From an uncultured bacterium (GTDB taxonomy: Bacteria; Cyanobacteriota; Vampirovibrionia; Gastranaerophilales; Gastranaerophilaceae), in NCBI GenBank assembly GCA_949290355.1, contig CASERN010000011.1, positions 434,001 to 498,000 of the forward strand: a stretch of DNA of 64,000 nt, in the 5' to 3' direction. How positions within the stretch are numbered: position 1 is the first letter of the stretch; each line of letters opens with the position of its first letter. This document shows positions 1,387-49,107 of this stretch, one piece after another. Position numbers and translations under genes: made by a program. The notes beneath the pieces are model-generated. The model did no database searches, had not been told where the DNA came from, and saw nothing but the letters and a program-made list of their open reading frames with translations.

Positions 1387-3951
1387 GATTGATAGAACGT
1401 AATTATTGTTGAAATATTTGTTTGCAACTTCTATAATGTCGGATTCGGTTACAGAATTTATTAGTTTTATATACTCATCATCAAATTTGTAACCTCTGCC
1501 TGATGCTTCAAACCAACCTATTGTGGTAGCTTTATCAAGATTTGTTTCTTGACCTATTATATAGTGGCCTAAAAGTTTGTCTTTAGCTTCTTGCAATTCT
1601 TTTGTACCTACAAATTCTGTTTTTAATCTGAAAACTTCTTCTTTTAATCTTTTTTCTGCGTAGTCAAGGTTTTCAGGGTTTGTTCCAATGTAGACTATAA
1701 AAGCTCCTTTTAGAACATTTGGAGAGTACTGGGAGCCTAGTTGATAAGCAAGTCCGTCTTTATCTCTTAGATTTTTAAATAATCTTGAGCTCATTCCTGA
1801 TCCCAGAAGAGAATCTATTACTTCTAATGTCGCATATTCTTTTTTATTCAATACTCCAGATGCTTGCCATCCCATTATTATCCAGTCTGTTTTTAAATCT
1901 TTTATATTTGTAGTGATTTTCTTTCCTTGTTGAAGAGTTGGTATTGAATATTTAGAGTAGTCAAATATTTGTCCTTTTTTATTGTTAAAAATTTTTGTAA
2001 ATTCATTTATTGTGTTTTCTATATCAACATTTCCATTAATTGAAATTACTGTGTTTTTTGGGTATAGAGCGTTTTCATAATATTGTTTGATATCTTCTTG
2101 GCTTATTTTGGGTAAGTTTTTTTCAAGTACTTTATTTGAAATAGAATATGGACTGTTTTCAAAAATATAAGTTTTGTAATTGTCAATTGCTATATTTAAA
2201 GGTATATCTTTACTTTTTTTGATAGCATTCAATTTGTCTGTTCTTGTTTTTTCAATTTCATAATCATCTAAAGTTGCATTGTTAATAACTTCATTCAAAA
2301 GTTCAAGAGTTTTTGTATATTCATTTTTTGTTGTAAGTACTGTAATTGCAAAACTGTCAGTTTTTGCTGATGGGACTATTTTAATTCCGCTATCTTCAAG
2401 AACTTGAGCAAATTCAGTTGAAGAATATTTTTTTGTTCCCTTTGTTAAAACGGATGCTGTTAAATCCGCTGTTCCAGGGATGTTTTCAGTAAATTCTCCT
2501 CCCTTTGAAAATATACTTATCGCAATTATATCATTTGTTTTATTTGGTGTAATGAGTAAAGTTGCACCATTTGCCAGTTGATATTTTTTTGTGTTTTTAT
2601 TTTGGTCGATTAATTTTGCAGGTTGTACATTTTGTGTGTTATTTGAGATTTTAACCTCTTTAGAAGATTCTGGTAAAACTATTGACACTGCACTTTTTTC
2701 TTTCCCAAGATACTTATTTGCAACTTGTTTTACATCATCAGCTGTAACTTTTTTAATATTATCAATGTATGTTTCATAATATTTTGTATCATCTGTAGTA
2801 ACCAATGTATATCCTATTTCTCCTGCAATGTTTGAGATGGATTCTCTTTCATAATATGTATTTCTTTCAATTACATTTTTTGCAAGGTTTAACTGTTCTT
2901 GTGTTACTCCATTTTTTTGAATATTTTTTATTTCTGCAAATATTTCATCTTGGAGTTTATTACATTTTTCAGGATTAAATGTTGCAGATATGTAAAATAT
3001 TCCGTCATCTTTAAATCCTGTATTAGCAGCCCCTATAGAATATACGAGTTGTTTTTGTTCTTTAATTTCCCTATAAAAAACAGAAGATCTTCCTTCTCCG
3101 AGTATTGTAGATAGTACGTCAAGAGCATAAGAATCTTTCCCATCTATTTTTACACCTCTAAATCCGATGAGCATATAACCTGATTGAGTATCAGCATATG
3201 CAACTTTTTTAGCTTGAGACGTAAGAATTTTTTCTTTTGGATAAATGTTTTTTATAGGTTTTTTATATTCTGTATTAAAATCATATTTTACTTTTTCTAT
3301 TGCAGATGCAGCATCTATATCCCCAATTATGACTGTTACCATATTAGATGGATTATAATATTTGTTATAATAATCTAAGATTTGCTCTCTTTGTATCGTA
3401 CTTATAATATCAGCTTTACCAATAACTTTTCTTTTATATGGGTGTGATGTATAAAGAAGATTGATAAGATTGTCATATACAAGTGTATTTGGAGAATTTG
3501 CATCTTTCATTATTTCTTCAATTACAACTTTTCTTTCTTTTTCAAGTTCTTTTCTTGGGATCAATGGATGTAAAAGCATGTCAGAATGCATTTCCAATGC
3601 TAAATCAAAGTCTTTTGAGGGTATTGTGATGTAATAATGCGTAAAATCTTTACTTGTTGCTGCGTTAGTTATGGCTCCTTTAGTTTCTAGAATCTTGTCG
3701 AATTCGCCAGGAGCATGGTTGGTTGATCCTTTGAAAAATAAATGTTCTAAAAAGTGAGAAACACCATTATTTTGATTATCTTCATTTATTGATCCTGTTT
3801 TTACCCATGTATCAATAGTAACTATTGGGTTTGTTTTTACTTCTTGAATAACTACTGTTTGCCCGTTATCAAGTTTATATACGTTAAAATCTGCTGCATT
3901 TACAATATTTGCAAATAATATTGCAACCAGTAAGAATACTATTTTTTTCAT
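1372..3951 (-). CDS. M16 family zinc metallopeptidase, two-domain, secreted
   Basis: This is a pitrilysin/insulinase-type (M16) protease of about 859 residues with an N-terminal signal peptide ending near VNAAD. It is predicted to be periplasmic. The inverted zinc motif HFLEH is at residues 66-70, preceded by the NNGVSHFLEH context typical of the family, and a downstream Glu-rich helix (KVVIEEIMKD) provides the third metal ligand. The second half (from about residue 450) repeats the fold without a zinc motif (LTASVLTKGTKKYSS, then SRLFKNLRDKDGLAYQLGSQY). This is the usual active-plus-inactive arrangement of bacterial double M16 proteins. I chose the ATG at 3951 because GAAGGGG precedes it and the signal peptide starts there. 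Another ATG eight codons upstream lacks a ribosome site. Confidence 0.9.
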   Translation of the reverse strand: MKKIVFLLVAILFANIVNAADFNVYKLDNGQTVVIQEVKTNPIVTIDTWVKTGSINEDNQNNGVSHFLEHLFFKGSTNHAPGEFDKILETKGAITNAATSKDFTHYYITIPSKDFDLALEMHSDMLLHPLIPRKELEKERKVVIEEIMKDANSPNTLVYDNLINLLYTSHPYKRKVIGKADIISTIQREQILDYYNKYYNPSNMVTVIIGDIDAASAIEKVKYDFNTEYKKPIKNIYPKEKILTSQAKKVAYADTQSGYMLIGFRGVKIDGKDSYALDVLSTILGEGRSSVFYREIKEQKQLVYSIGAANTGFKDDGIFYISATFNPEKCNKLQDEIFAEIKNIQKNGVTQEQLNLAKNVIERNTYYERESISNIAGEIGYTLVTTDDTKYYETYIDNIKKVTADDVKQVANKYLGKEKSAVSIVLPESSKEVKISNNTQNVQPAKLIDQNKNTKKYQLANGATLLITPNKTNDIIAISIFSKGGEFTENIPGTADLTASVLTKGTKKYSSTEFAQVLEDSGIKIVPSAKTDSFAITVLTTKNEYTKTLELLNEVINNATLDDYEIEKTRTDKLNAIKKSKDIPLNIAIDNYKTYIFENSPYSISNKVLEKNLPKISQEDIKQYYENALYPKNTVISINGNVDIENTINEFTKIFNNKKGQIFDYSKYSIPTLQQGKKITTNIKDLKTDWIIMGWQASGVLNKKEYATLEVIDSLLGSGMSSRLFKNLRDKDGLAYQLGSQYSPNVLKGAFIVYIGTNPENLDYAEKRLKEEVFRLKTEFVGTKELQEAKDKLLGHYIIGQETNLDKATTIGWFEASGRGYKFDDEYIKLINSVTESDIIEVANKYFNNNYVLSIVKPQ

Positions 3952-4026
3952 TTTTTCCCCTTCTTTTTTAAACATATTAAAATTATATTAAACATAATAC
4001 TATAAATTTTTAAATAGGAAAGCAGT

Positions 4027-4302
4027 TTATCTTTTTCTAAATTTTTTTATTAAAGGAAAACTCAATATTGTTGCAGTAATTGTTCCTAATGTAACAAATA
4101 CAGATGTCGGAGTTTTCTTTTTGTTAATACTTTCACTTTTTTTCATAGATACGTATATATCATGATTAATTTTATTAAAATCTTCAGTTGCTTGTTTGTT
4201 TGAGTAAAGTATAGGTGTATATAATTTGTTAGGAGGGGTTATTACTCCAACATTTAAAGTTTTATTTGAAATGTACTGATTTGTATTAGCTACACTATCC
4301 AT
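4027..4302 (-). CDS. Small hypothetical protein with C-terminal membrane anchor
   Basis: This 91-residue protein has a polar N-terminus and one hydrophobic C-terminal segment (about residues 67-85) followed by the basic tail KKFRKR. That is the pattern of a tail-anchored inner-membrane protein. I do not recognise the family. No Shine-Dalgarno sequence precedes the ATG, so either it is translated without one or the gene call is weaker than its neighbours. It sits between the M16 protease (same strand) and the divergent perR gene. Confidence 0.5.
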   Translation of the reverse strand: MDSVANTNQYISNKTLNVGVITPPNKLYTPILYSNKQATEDFNKINHDIYVSMKKSESINKKKTPTSVFVTLGTITATILSFPLIKKFRKR

Positions 4303-4363
4303 AATATTATTAAAACAGAAATAAATAAAAAATTGCTTTATTTTTCAAATTATAAATTATCTA

Positions 4364-4406
4364 TTGACAAAAAAGACAAAATAAATTAAAATGAGAATTA
4401 TTATTA
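4364..4406 (+). promoter_or_regulatory. perR promoter with overlapping PerR/Fur-box-like operator
   Basis: A near-consensus promoter reads TTGACA (4364-4369), a 17-base spacer and TAAAAT (4387-4392). Directly overlapping its end is TGAGAAT-T-ATTATTA (4392-4406). This is an imperfect 7-1-7 inverted repeat (5 of 7 arm positions complementary) resembling the TGATAAT-n-ATTATCA box of Fur/PerR regulators. The position, from the -10 to just past the start site, fits autorepression. The same half-site TGAGAAT recurs at 4826-4832, just upstream of the rubredoxin gene. Operator assignment is by resemblance only. Confidence 0.6.
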
Positions 4407-4421
4407 CTTTTATGGAGAACA

Positions 4422-4814
4422 ATGAATTATTCAAGACAAAGAGAAGTTATACTTGAAACATTAAAGTCTAATGTAGTACATCCTACTGCAGAATATTTAT
4501 ATGCGGTTTTAAAGGAAAAAGAGCCTAATATTAGCCTTGCAACATTGTATCGAAATTTGAATCAGTTAGCAGATAATGGAATAATTAAAAAAATAGATGG
4601 TTTAGAGACTTCTTCACATTATGATCATAATACTCATGAGCATTATCATTTTATATGTGAAAGGTGTAAAAAAGTATTTGATATTAGTGCCGATGTATGT
4701 CCGAATATCGTAAAAAAGACAGAGGAAGGCACCGGTTTTCTAGTTAAAAAATATGATATAGTTTTTAATGGATTATGTGCTGATTGTCTAAAGGAAATAA
4801 AAGAAAGTAACTAA
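4422..4814 (+). CDS. perR: Fur-family peroxide-responsive repressor, PerR-like
   Basis: This 130-residue Fur-superfamily regulator has the winged-helix DNA-binding domain at residues 1-60 (SLATLYRNLNQLADNGII is the recognition region). Structural zinc cysteines are C79/C82 (CERC) and C119/C122 (CADC). The regulatory metal site looks PerR-like rather than Fur-like: an aspartate (HYD, residue 68) occupies the position where E. coli Fur has glutamate, with histidines at 20, 74 and 76 nearby. In PerR these His residues are oxidised by Fe(II) and peroxide, releasing the repressor. GGAG precedes the ATG. The promoter overlaps a PerR-box-like sequence, and the downstream genes encode rubredoxin, rubrerythrin and a flavodiiron protein, which fits peroxide/oxygen control. 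Specificity remains an inference. Confidence 0.88.
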   Translation: MNYSRQREVILETLKSNVVHPTAEYLYAVLKEKEPNISLATLYRNLNQLADNGIIKKIDGLETSSHYDHNTHEHYHFICERCKKVFDISADVCPNIVKKTEEGTGFLVKKYDIVFNGLCADCLKEIKESN

Positions 4815-4856
4815 TATTTTAAAGTGAGAATATAATAGTAAGTAAAGGAGAAAAAA

Positions 4857-4994
4857 ATGGAAAAGTATGTATGCACAGTATGTGGTTATGTATATGACCC
4901 GGAAGAAAACGATGGTGTAAAATTTGAAGATTTAGCAGATGATTATGTATGCCCTCTTTGTGGTGTAGGAAAAGATTTGTTTGAAAAACAATAG
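4857..4994 (+). CDS. rub: Rubredoxin (short, 45 residues)
   Basis: This one-iron electron carrier has two CxxC motifs, CTVCG at residues 6-10 and CPLCG at 32-36, which bind Fe(SCys)4. At 45 residues it lacks about seven residues of the usual loop after YVYDP, as in the known short rubredoxin of Desulfovibrio desulfuricans. It is therefore a complete protein, not a truncation. AAAGGAG lies 6 bases before the ATG. The gene starts 42 bases after perR and is followed by a terminator-like hairpin. Its likely partners are the rubrerythrin and flavodiiron protein immediately downstream, to which it would pass electrons for reducing peroxide and oxygen. Confidence 0.93.
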
Positions 4995-15614: not shown

Positions 15615-15643
15615 TTGAAAATTGTATGGAAATCGTTTATAAT
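15615..15643 (+). promoter_or_regulatory. Strong promoter of the pilin locus
   Basis: TTGAAA (15615-15620), an exact 17-base spacer and TATAAT (15638-15643) form a near-consensus sigma-70 promoter. It places the transcript start near 15650, upstream of the poly-G leader reading frame and its Shine-Dalgarno sequence. Confidence 0.75.
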
Positions 15644-15675
15644 CATTACATATATAAGAGAAAGGAGCTAGATTT

Positions 15676-15774
15676 ATGAAAAGATTTAACGTACTGCAGA
15701 ATTTCGGGGGGGGGCGATTTAAGGCTTATTACAAGGATTTTCGGGGGTTGCGAAAGCAAAAAAATCTGTTATAA
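15676..15774 (+). CDS. Leader reading frame interrupted at a G9 tract
   Basis: A 32-codon reading frame starts with ATG eight bases after AAAGGAG and directly downstream of a near-consensus promoter, so it should be translated. After ten codons it enters a run of nine G, and in this frame it stops at 15772. If the tract had eight (or eleven) G, the frame would run without any stop through the next 96 bases. It would then fuse in frame to the ATG at 15812 of the pilin-like gene, adding about 45 residues ahead of the prepilin motif. I interpret it as the true 5' end of the pilin gene in an 'off' state, or as a homopolymer sequencing error. Confidence 0.5.
   Translation: MKRFNVLQNFGGGRFKAYYKDFRGLRKQKNLL
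15706..15714 (+). repeat. Poly-G tract (G9)
   Basis: Nine consecutive G lie in a strongly AT-rich region. Together with the ten-base tract at 49064-49073, it is one of the only two G/C runs longer than six that I found in the window. Both lie at the 5' ends of pilin-like genes. Such tracts are classic slipped-strand mutation sites. Confidence 0.85.
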
Positions 15775-15811
15775 TGATAATGTATATCATCACAATTATA
15801 GCGGAGAGTTT

Positions 15812-16495
15812 ATGAAAAAAATATTCGGTTTCACGTTAGCAGAGGTATTGATTACTTTAGGAATTATAGGAGTTGTAGCGGCATTAACTATACCTGCTTT
15901 GATGGTAAAACATCAAAAGAAAGTATTTGCTACAAAAGTAAAGCAGACATATAGTATAGTTTCAAACGCATTGTTAAGTTCAGTTGCTGAAAATGGAGCT
16001 CCAAATACTTGGGCTTATTATGAACTAGACTCATCTGATCCGGATTATTTTAATAAGGCTTCCAGTCATATGGAAGAAATGGTAGTTAAATATTTTAAGC
16101 CGTATTTTAAAATTATTGGAGAAGGAAAAAATGCGCCAGGATATTATTTAATTTTAAGCAATGGAGTAACTTTATATTTTCAACCTGATGTATATGCAAC
16201 ATCAAATGGTACATATAAACAGAGTTCTGTTTTTATATTAGGCAGCACAGTCGGAAATCGTGATTATTTCGTTTCTGCAGATAGGAATTATTCAAGAACT
16301 GATTTTTTGATGCAAATCAGTGCAACAGAGGGTAATGCAAAAGTTCAAATGTATATGACAGATTATACCTTAGATGAAATTAAAAACCATTCGAAATACG
16401 GCTGTAATAAAAATATATCTCCAAACTATAGGATTGGCTGTGGGGCAATGATTCAGAAAAATAATTGGGAAATCCCCGATGATTATCCTTGGTAA
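15812..16495 (+). CDS. Type IV pilin-like (prepilin N-terminal motif) protein
   Basis: The 227-residue form starts with a short basic leader, then G/FTLAEVLITLGIIGVVAALTIPAL. This is the prepilin peptidase site followed by the hydrophobic helix with Glu at +5. It should be cleaved and N-methylated, then incorporated into a pilus or pseudopilus. The C-terminal half contains a Cys-containing region ending NNWEIPDDYPW, seen from memory in many paralogous pseudopilins of Gastranaerophilales. GGAG precedes the ATG at 15812, so this start may work alone. A longer version starting at 15676 is possible if the G-tract length changes. The downstream genes include dprA, so a role in DNA uptake is conceivable but unproven. 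Confidence 0.88.
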   Translation: MKKIFGFTLAEVLITLGIIGVVAALTIPALMVKHQKKVFATKVKQTYSIVSNALLSSVAENGAPNTWAYYELDSSDPDYFNKASSHMEEMVVKYFKPYFKIIGEGKNAPGYYLILSNGVTLYFQPDVYATSNGTYKQSSVFILGSTVGNRDYFVSADRNYSRTDFLMQISATEGNAKVQMYMTDYTLDEIKNHSKYGCNKNISPNYRIGCGAMIQKNNWEIPDDYPW

Positions 16496-47323: not shown

Positions 47324-48343
47324 ATGAAAATTTTATCAGGATTAACATTAAACGAAATAGAACAAATTACCAATCAACTTAAGGCTTCAAAATTCAGAGC
47401 CAGACAAATTCATAATTGGATCTATTTAAAATCTGTAAAAAGTATTGATGAAATGACCGATTTGTCATTAAGCTTTAGAGAAGATTTGAAAAAAGTTGCA
47501 GTGGTAACAGATACAAAAATAAAAATAAAACAAGAAAGCAGTGATGGCACATTAAAATATTTATTGGAATATCCTGATGGACAGTGTGTGGAAACTGTTT
47601 TGATGCGTTTTGATAATCGAGCTAATTTAACTGCTTGTGTAAGCTCTCAGGTTGGCTGTGCCGTTAATTGCTCCTTTTGTGCGACAGGGAAACGCGGTTT
47701 TATAAGGAATCTTACTTATAAAGAAATAATAGAACAGGTATTGACAATTCAAAGAGATACTGGACTTAAGGTTACAAATGTCGTGTTCATGGGCCAGGGT
47801 GAACCGCTTTTAAATCTTGATAATGTTTTAAAAGCAATGGAAATATTTAATGAAAATTTTCAAATAGGTGCAAGACGTTTGACAGTTTCCACTTCAGGAA
47901 TAATTCCAGGGATAAATCGTCTGGCAGAAATTGATATGCAATCTACTTTGGCACTTTCTCTGCACGCTCCAAATCATGATATTCGTAAAAAATTGATGCA
48001 GATTGAAAATAAATATCCAATGCCGGAGTTGAAGAAGGCATTGAAAAATTATATAGAAAAAACCGGAAGACGAATTACTATAGAATATTTGCTTATAAGA
48101 GATTTAAATGATACTCTTCAAAGTGCAAAAGAGCTTGTTGCATATTTGCATGATTTGAAATGTAATATCAATTTAATCCCTTATAATTCAACAGAAAAAA
48201 ATGATTATCAAAAACCTTCTAACAATTCCATAATGCGTTTTAAATCATTACTGGAACAATCAGGCAAAAAAGTAACTGTCCGTTTAGAACGCGGAGCAGA
48301 TATTGATGCCGCTTGCGGACAGTTAAGTGGTAAAGTTAATTAA
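47324..48343 (+). CDS. rlmN: Dual-specificity RNA methyltransferase RlmN
   Basis: This 339-residue radical SAM enzyme methylates A2503 of 23S rRNA and A37 of some tRNAs at C2. The radical SAM cluster is C112-x3-C116-x2-C119 (GCAVNCSFCATGKRGF). MGQGEPLLNLDNV, STSGIIPGI and LALSLHAPN are typical. The C-terminal catalytic Cys (DAACGQLSG, near residue 331) is present, as is the N-terminal helical domain. AGGAT precedes the ATG. The gene is convergent with the second pilin-like gene, overlapping it by four bases. Confidence 0.95.
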   Translation: MKILSGLTLNEIEQITNQLKASKFRARQIHNWIYLKSVKSIDEMTDLSLSFREDLKKVAVVTDTKIKIKQESSDGTLKYLLEYPDGQCVETVLMRFDNRANLTACVSSQVGCAVNCSFCATGKRGFIRNLTYKEIIEQVLTIQRDTGLKVTNVVFMGQGEPLLNLDNVLKAMEIFNENFQIGARRLTVSTSGIIPGINRLAEIDMQSTLALSLHAPNHDIRKKLMQIENKYPMPELKKALKNYIEKTGRRITIEYLLIRDLNDTLQSAKELVAYLHDLKCNINLIPYNSTEKNDYQKPSNNSIMRFKSLLEQSGKKVTVRLERGADIDAACGQLSGKVN

Positions 48344-49107
48344 TATTTTATTTGCCAGTTGTCATAATCTATAACTCTAGAAGAACAGCTTAATTCTGGA
48401 GTTAATATGCTTCCTTCATTGTTTGGGCATGCTTTATATATTTCATCTCGCAGTGCTGCTTCTGTTTCAGTATTCCAATTCCCACCTCCATTTGCAGCTG
48501 CAAACATATCAATAAAGTTTTTCCCTGTGCCCAAATAACCACTATCGCAAAGCACAAAACCAAATATATCATAACCTACTTTGTTGGGACCTTTATCGCC
48601 GTTACTATCTATATATACCCATCCAGCAAGAGTATCACAAGCTTTATAATGGGTATTAAATGGACCATCTACTCGAGCCATTATATTGAATTCTACAGCA
48701 GAACCATCAGCCATATATGCGTAAAAAGCTTGTTCTTGACTATCAAATTTTGGATCCTTAACATTGACAATATTAAAATATTTATAAATAGTACTATTTA
48801 TAGGACAATATGTGTCGTCAACAGTATTTTGACAGTTAATGAAATATTGTGTATCACTTAATTTTTCAACTCCATCATCACTCATCATTTTTTTTAATCC
48901 GTTGGTAACAACATTATAGCTCTTTTTCAGTTGGTTTGCGTAAACCATTTTTTGATATTTTGCCATTAATGATGGTATTGTGATTGCTGCAACGACCCCT
49001 ATTATCCCAAGAGTAATTAAAACCTCTGCTAAGGTAAACGCCTTAGAACAGTAAGTGTTTTGCGGGGGGGGGGCAGTCTCAAAGCTTCTTGTGTAAACAT
49101 TTTTCAA
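48340..49107 (-). CDS. Type IV pilin-like protein whose start is separated by a C10 tract
   Basis: The frame encodes about 230 residues of pilin-like protein starting at SKAFTLAEVLITLGIIGVVAAITIPSLMAKYQ (prepilin motif, Ala instead of Gly at the cleavage site). A C-terminal globular domain ends in IDYDNWQIKY. The only in-frame start upstream is TTG at 49107, but it directly abuts AAAGGAGG and so cannot be a normal start. The properly spaced ATG (49100, seven bases after GGAGG) is in another frame. It reaches a stop after 23 codons unless the ten-C tract at 49064-49073 becomes 11 or 8 long. The gene therefore looks switched off in this sequence, or the tract length is misread. Confidence 0.75.
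   Translation of the reverse strand: MKNVYTRSFETAPPPQNTYCSKAFTLAEVLITLGIIGVVAAITIPSLMAKYQKMVYANQLKKSYNVVTNGLKKMMSDDGVEKLSDTQYFINCQNTVDDTYCPINSTIYKYFNIVNVKDPKFDSQEQAFYAYMADGSAVEFNIMARVDGPFNTHYKACDTLAGWVYIDSNGDKGPNKVGYDIFGFVLCDSGYLGTGKNFIDMFAAANGGGNWNTETEAALRDEIYKACPNNEGSILTPELSCSSRVIDYDNWQIKY
49064..49073 (-). repeat. Poly-C tract (C10 on the coding strand)
   Basis: Ten consecutive C on the coding strand lie between the best start codon (49100) and the prepilin motif of the second pilin-like gene. It is the longest G/C homopolymer I found in the window and a likely slipped-strand mutation site. Confidence 0.88.

Follow-up and report, generated by a model that had tools for sequence, protein, structure and literature searches.

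A G tract in the leader of a pilin-like gene of Gastranaerophilales is probably one contingency switch of a genome-wide family

Introduction

Tracts that shift the reading frame are familiar chiefly from Proteobacteria adapted to a host. In the opa genes of Neisseria the repeat is located in the signal-peptide region, and in Campylobacter the tracts occur in many different types of gene. For Neisseria pilC, a pilus gene, phase variation through a G tract was described (Jonsson 1991, as cited in PMC4471445); here the tract comprises 9–20 G (PMC5953494). About 11–12 opa genes carry CTTCT repeats (PMC5953494, PMC3745409), and the pilE/pilS system undergoes recombinational antigenic variation, some pilS alleles containing poly-C (PMC5953494). 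Campylobacter jejuni NCTC11168 possesses 29 poly-G/C tracts of 7 or more (PMC4965091). The principle of a length-dependent switch is already known from Neisseria pilC and opa and from the Campylobacter contingency loci (PMC5953494, PMC4965091).

Here we analysed a 64,000-nucleotide stretch of DNA (the window) from a genome of Candidatus Gastranaerophilales (G000; 1.85 Mb, 14 contigs), in which a G9 tract precedes a pilin-like gene. As in pilC, a G/C homopolymer lies in a reading frame, so that its length shifts the frame and would switch a pilus component between the two states. PilC, however, is a pilus accessory/retraction protein of Betaproteobacteria, present in one or two copies, which is not a pilin and has no prepilin leader, whereas here dozens of pilin-like genes are concerned, with the tract in a region of the prepilin that would be removed before assembly. 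The opa genes resemble the present family in being a multigene surface-protein family whose members switch independently through a repeat in the reading frame, but their repeat is a pentanucleotide, their products are outer-membrane beta-barrels with a Sec signal peptide, and they are not homologous. In pilE/pilS a pilin gene is likewise affected, with an occasional poly-C tract, yet one expression locus is fed there by silent cassettes, while here the genes are each equipped with a promoter, a start and a tract of their own. As in C. jejuni, tens of tracts of 8–11 G/C are found in an AT-rich genome, with ON and OFF set by the frame; unlike in Campylobacter, every identified tract of at least eight belongs to one protein family. 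New aspects are the lineage in which the tracts occur, their target (pilin-like genes by the dozen, which take all the identified long G/C tracts) and their position in the disposable prepilin leader. The initial annotation of this DNA knew of no phase-variable pilins in the lineage, and the open-licence literature yielded no paper linking the lineage to phase variation or pilin switching.

Results

The locus is on the forward strand of the window. A sigma-70-type promoter (P1, TTGAAA-17-TATAAT, 15615–15643) and a Shine-Dalgarno sequence, AAAGGAG (15661–15667), lead to an ATG at 15676, from which a leader frame encoding MKRFNVLQNF (15676–15705) enters the G9 tract (15706–15714), the proposed switch. 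With nine G, the assembled length, this frame ends at a TAA (15772–15774). Behind the tract, the leader is open in the pilin frame as far as the prepilin cleavage site (15715–15829). This segment contains an internal extended -10 promoter (P2, TTGCGA-16-TGTTATAAT, 15748–15775), followed by a second ribosome site and start (15803–15814), namely GGAGAG at 15803–15808 and the ATG at 15812, the canonical short-leader start MKKIFG^FTLAEV. The pilin-like gene (15812–16495), which has an N_methyl motif, encodes a protein of 227 aa that starts MKKIFG^FTLAEVLITLGIIG, the mature form beginning at F (15830). The promoter, ribosome site, ATG, G9 tract, stop and internal ATG listed by the initial annotation were all re-read at exactly these coordinates. 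Its claim that one G fewer or two more opens the frame into the pilin was borne out for G8 and G11, which carry the leader frame through to FTLAEVLITLGII; the ON product from 15676 is MKRFNVLQNFGGGDLRLITRIFGGCESKKICYNDNVYHHNYSGEFMKKIFG, with cleavage predicted before F. With G9 the product has 32 aa and with G10 it has 15 aa, as in the sister genes.

The window contains a second tract-bearing pilin-like gene, on the reverse strand (48340–49100; ATG at 49100–49098, mature F at 49038–49036). Its leader carries a C10 tract (49064–49073; G10 on the forward strand), and C8 or C11 gives MFTQEALRLPPPPQNTYCSKAFTLAEV. Because there is no internal in-frame ATG before FTLAEV, this gene, OFF as assembled, would be strictly tract-dependent, and by its sequence it is a cleaner example of a switch than the first gene. 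The window holds only two runs of at least seven G or C, at 15706 and 49064, both within pilin leaders. The suggestion that such a tract is an outlier of base composition was confirmed: the window has seven overlapping G7 matches where 0.59 would be expected, a count that none of the shuffles attained.

The protein of the window type shows the prepilin motif [AG]^FTLxE followed by a hydrophobic helix, and it scored above the cut-offs for PF07963 and TIGR02532. A prepilin peptidase (PF01478, above cut-off) is encoded elsewhere in the genome (C11:510233). An AlphaFold model (35 family members; pLDDT 93) displayed a long N-terminal helix (9–61) followed by strands, and a Foldseek search of this model against the PDB gave no significant solved match. 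Known prepilin leaders have 6–26 aa (PMC4471445). The 6-aa leader of the short form, from the ATG at 15812, is within this range, while the long leader (51–52 aa in the window gene, about 39 aa in class B, see below) exceeds it, which lowers confidence in normal processing of the long form; the pilin-like mature protein is unaffected by this consideration.

A search with 241 bases of the window region gave 27 matches in the window's own genome. Fifty-four genes of this genome scored above the N_methyl threshold, and 36 of them have a tract in the leader, i.e. a run of 8–11 G or C located 25–115 nt before the FTLAEV codons. Of two further tracts, one belongs to a divergent pilin (C11:823452, C10) and the other to a leader truncated where a contig ends (C4:13). 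All 38 identified runs of at least eight G/C in the genome sit in pilin-like leaders; the 100 of 113 overlapping matches listed, together with the remaining places recovered at pilin genes, included no such run outside pilin leaders. Several contigs stop at or near tract leaders (C2, C4, C9 and C13 at their ends, C11 at its 3' end; leaders L087, L106, L092, L096, L103 and L093). This indicates that the assembly breaks at these repeats, so that the true copy number may exceed 38.

The tract genes share one plan. The ATG frame covers about 10 codons before the tract and the post-tract leader about 8 to 38 codons in this genome, far more in some relatives. A Shine-Dalgarno sequence is present at the leader start in nearly all intact copies of the tract leader, and upstream of the leader ATG a TATAAT-like box and, about 17 nt from it, a TTG-like box are seen in the majority of the genome's tract genes. 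Several leader types could be distinguished: class A, with a G tract, which includes the window gene (GGDLRLSTKVFGGCKSKKICYNGNVYHHNYSGEFMKKIFG^F); class A' (GGAALGSFQDLRGCKRENICYNGDVGNHFYNGEFMKKHFG^F); class B, with a G tract and without internal ATG (GGDLRLTPQGFRGVFKNFVSGQAARLG^F); class C, with a C tract (PPPEKLNYDCISRKELDKYKNISYNSDVMNHYYGRKRA^F); and a short form, D, found at 49064 in the window (PPPPQNTYCSKA^F). With the start chosen automatically, the ON lengths were 8 and 11 in 33 of the 36 genes, and one of the exceptions (L087) merely has its start cut at a contig end. One length class fuses the frames (usually 8 or 11 in the genus) and the other lengths stop, often after a few codons; with a tract of ten, most genes yield a product that stops at codon 15, regardless of class. 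All 36 genes have an identifiable start and are open behind the tract; as assembled, 7 are ON and 29 OFF. In one class C gene (L062; G000:C7:34492–34563, reverse strand) the tract is interrupted (CCCCTCCCCC) and a stop lies just ahead of RKRAFTLAEV; from its sequence this gene looks like a decayed, permanently OFF remnant.

We then considered the frame behind the tract. The post-tract segments of the genome and its relatives were reduced to 71 non-redundant ones of at least 60 nt each. The pilin frame was open in 67 of these, and the other two frames in 3 and 0; shuffled segments gave 5.9 open on average and 15 at most. The segments reach 439 nt (L170). In two relatives (L170, at about 3757–4870, and the second tract of L203) post-tract leaders of 316–439 nt contain REP-like dispersed repeats, and the pilin frame is still open. 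The initial annotation had named conservation of the leader at the protein level as a check. With very few exceptions the frame has indeed stayed open, but its amino acids are under weak constraint: pN/pS was about 0.5–0.8 in the pilin frame and sometimes lower in the others. A codon-level selection test on the leaders gave no clear signal, the pilin frame showing no consistent advantage over the other two, and we do not count it as support. Such weak constraint fits a leader that would need only to be readable and is then removed.

An in-frame ATG with a Shine-Dalgarno sequence just before the motif was found in 17 of the 36 tract genes, including the window gene; six have an ATG without Shine-Dalgarno sequence at this place and 13 have no internal in-frame ATG. 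Judged by their sequences, the latter 13 should be true ON/OFF genes. The internal ATG of the window gene (15812) had been described as the weaker start. This is not clearly so, as it has its own GGAGAG and the extended -10 promoter, and the window gene probably still makes a short-leader prepilin by this route. P2-type promoters were also found ahead of tract-less pilins, among them a paralogue of the window pilin with 53% identity (L067; G000:C11:203777), which has P2 and the internal start only, and no switch. An imperfect inverted repeat, TATAATGATAATGTATATCATCACAATTATA, lies just after the P2 -10 box (15770–15800), and relatives show AGTGAT-ATG-ATCACT at that place; it may be a candidate operator common to tract-bearing and tract-less pilins. 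In some relatives an in-frame ATG is placed approximately at the transcription start predicted for P2, a possible leaderless start.

These observations raised the possibility that the pilin of the window gene is made from the internal promoter and start (15748–15814) only, the P1 leader with its tract being a regulatory or decaying addition. The window gene and most of its class A sisters have retained an intact P2 and GGAGAG-ATG, the tract-less paralogue is equipped with exactly these elements, and one class C gene of the genome has decayed. Yet the post-tract frame is open across P2 in essentially all copies, while the other frames are not; 13 tract genes of the genome lack any internal ATG; and two genes (L055 and L060) have lost the TATAAT (TATAGA) but kept the frame. 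We therefore consider this explanation unlikely, though it deserves to be taken seriously for the window gene. Since that gene has both P2 and an internal start, the short form may be made whatever the tract length, and its tract may choose the form of the leader or the level of output instead of acting as an on/off switch; strict ON/OFF control is likelier for sister genes without internal promoter and ribosome site. The proposal of a tract-length switch thus stands in so far as the G tract sets the frame of the upstream start relative to the pilin, but the OFF state of the window gene may correspond to a short-leader pilin.

Compared between relatives, tract length proved to change faster than the flanking sequence. 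In two species, one gene with C11 (L211, ON) and one with C10 (L212, OFF) differ at 0 of 80 flank bases. Two orthologues with 95.4% identity across 918 bp have G10 (L287) and G9 (L288). Among 18 leaders of a single type in one genome (G119), tracts of G8, G11 to G14 and G16 occur, the majority being out of frame and the rest in frame. A counter-example is provided by L291 and L292, which are 95% identical and both have G10. The in-frame length class also varies among genera and paralogues (n mod 3 = 2, 1 or 0). Of the features by which SSR phase variation is recognized, a homopolymer beyond chance inside a reading frame, a single length class that gives the full frame, and lengths that vary in close relatives with conserved flanks were all found.

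About 21 of 126 tract genes of relatives (five copies of the window's own genome being excluded) were ON as assembled, when one third would be expected under neutral length (binomial P ~2e-5). A tract of ten is very common in the genus and usually OFF, which indicates that length is not freely scattered. An alternative is slippage of the ribosome or RNA polymerase, whereby a constant fraction of products would be frameshifted into the pilin at a fixed tract, which would set a level without being a switch: the dominant G10/C10 is out of frame, with a stop 2–5 codons on, and resembles a slippery site. Near-identical copies differ in length, however, one paralogue family spanning 8 to 16; the different in-frame classes could not be served by any single direction of shift; some genes are already in frame; and the tracts comprise G as well as C versions. 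Slippage thus appears very improbable, and a programmed frameshift site was rejected for similar reasons, tract length and needed offset both varying among genes and genera.

Even less credible is that the genes are truly all in frame and that the OFF lengths are artefacts of sequencing or assembly. Homopolymers of ten are error-prone and the genomes are mostly metagenome assemblies, but errors cannot explain why runs of 9–10 G recur in this many pilin leaders yet are found nowhere outside them in the genome, nor would they yield a conserved early off-frame stop or a common length of ten across projects, and some pairs (L211/L212) differ in tract length alone. A chance tract is ruled out by the G7 counts against shuffles, the genome-wide runs and the 67 of 71 open segments. 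A mobile repeat or insertion element is made unlikely by the repeated unit, which consists of leader plus pilin N-terminus, always stands before a pilin gene and has differing upstream sequence. The presence of MutS and a MutS2-like gene in the genome speaks against the idea that a mismatch-repair defect drives the changes. MutS also counts against the switch proposal itself, as do the weak amino-acid constraint of the leaders, the prevalence of usually OFF tracts of ten and the lack of a significant match among solved structures.

With one narrow pattern, G-tract pilin leaders were detected in 38 of the family's 191 genomes, spread over 10 genera, and the reversed-pattern control gave zero matches in every genome scanned. 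Within the genus, the longer G form was present in 19 of 33 genomes and the C form in 13 of 33, and one genome from another family of the order has two tract leaders. When viral contigs were scanned with the exact pattern, no length variants were found. The window gene adjoins dapA, and several species carry a tract-bearing pilin beside dapA: six of these have G10 and are OFF (L132, L141, L128, L129, L156, L136), and one has G11 and is ON (L171). In an orthologue of the latter, also adjacent to dapA (L165, about 4833), the tract is interrupted by an A (G11-AG) and the gene is OFF. Depending on the species, the dapA-adjacent site (L128–L175) holds different pilins, remnants or nothing, and resembles a hot spot of pilin turnover. 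In another genome (G203), the tract-to-motif segments of two genes (L298 and L300) are 97.5% identical over 163 nt while their upstream starts differ, a comparison that suggests exchange of leader modules among genes.

Discussion

A length-switched G tract that decides the frame of an upstream start is strongly supported, and is far more general than the initial annotation had claimed. Starting from the observed architecture, the conserved frame, the length differences in near-identical relatives and paralogues, and the prepilin-peptidase gene, we conclude that the G9 tract is, in all likelihood, one contingency switch within a genome-wide family of phase-variable pilin-like genes. In the mechanism that we propose, each gene would be read from its own upstream promoter, Shine-Dalgarno sequence and ATG through about 10 codons into a run of 8–11 G or C. 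Slipped-strand errors in replication would add or remove single bases of the tract; one residue class of lengths would fuse the leader to the pilin and give a full prepilin, and the other two would stop early. As the tract would be located upstream of the site of peptidase cleavage and a prepilin peptidase gene is present, the mature protein should be unchanged by switching.

A high rate of length change within a strain is what we infer from the differences between close relatives and between paralogues. Translation is expected to follow the frame, the long leader to be processed and the cell to express few pilins at once. On a wider reading, which we hold to be evenly poised between right and wrong, the genome would hold about 38 pilin-like genes that switch independently of one another and are for the most part OFF. 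With the switch in a disposable leader, and with leaders exchanged between genes, each cell in the animal gut would display only a few of the pilins, in a changing selection.

One lineage seems to devote every such tract in its genome to pilin-like proteins, and to place it where it is cut off before assembly. Automatic annotation is expected to call most of these genes short fragments or to give them wrong starts, so that current genome records probably overlook them. If the proposed switching is true, the Gastranaerophilales, which are common, uncultured gut bacteria, would own a very large combinatorial surface repertoire, and this would bear on gut persistence, adhesion and the avoidance of phages or of immunity.
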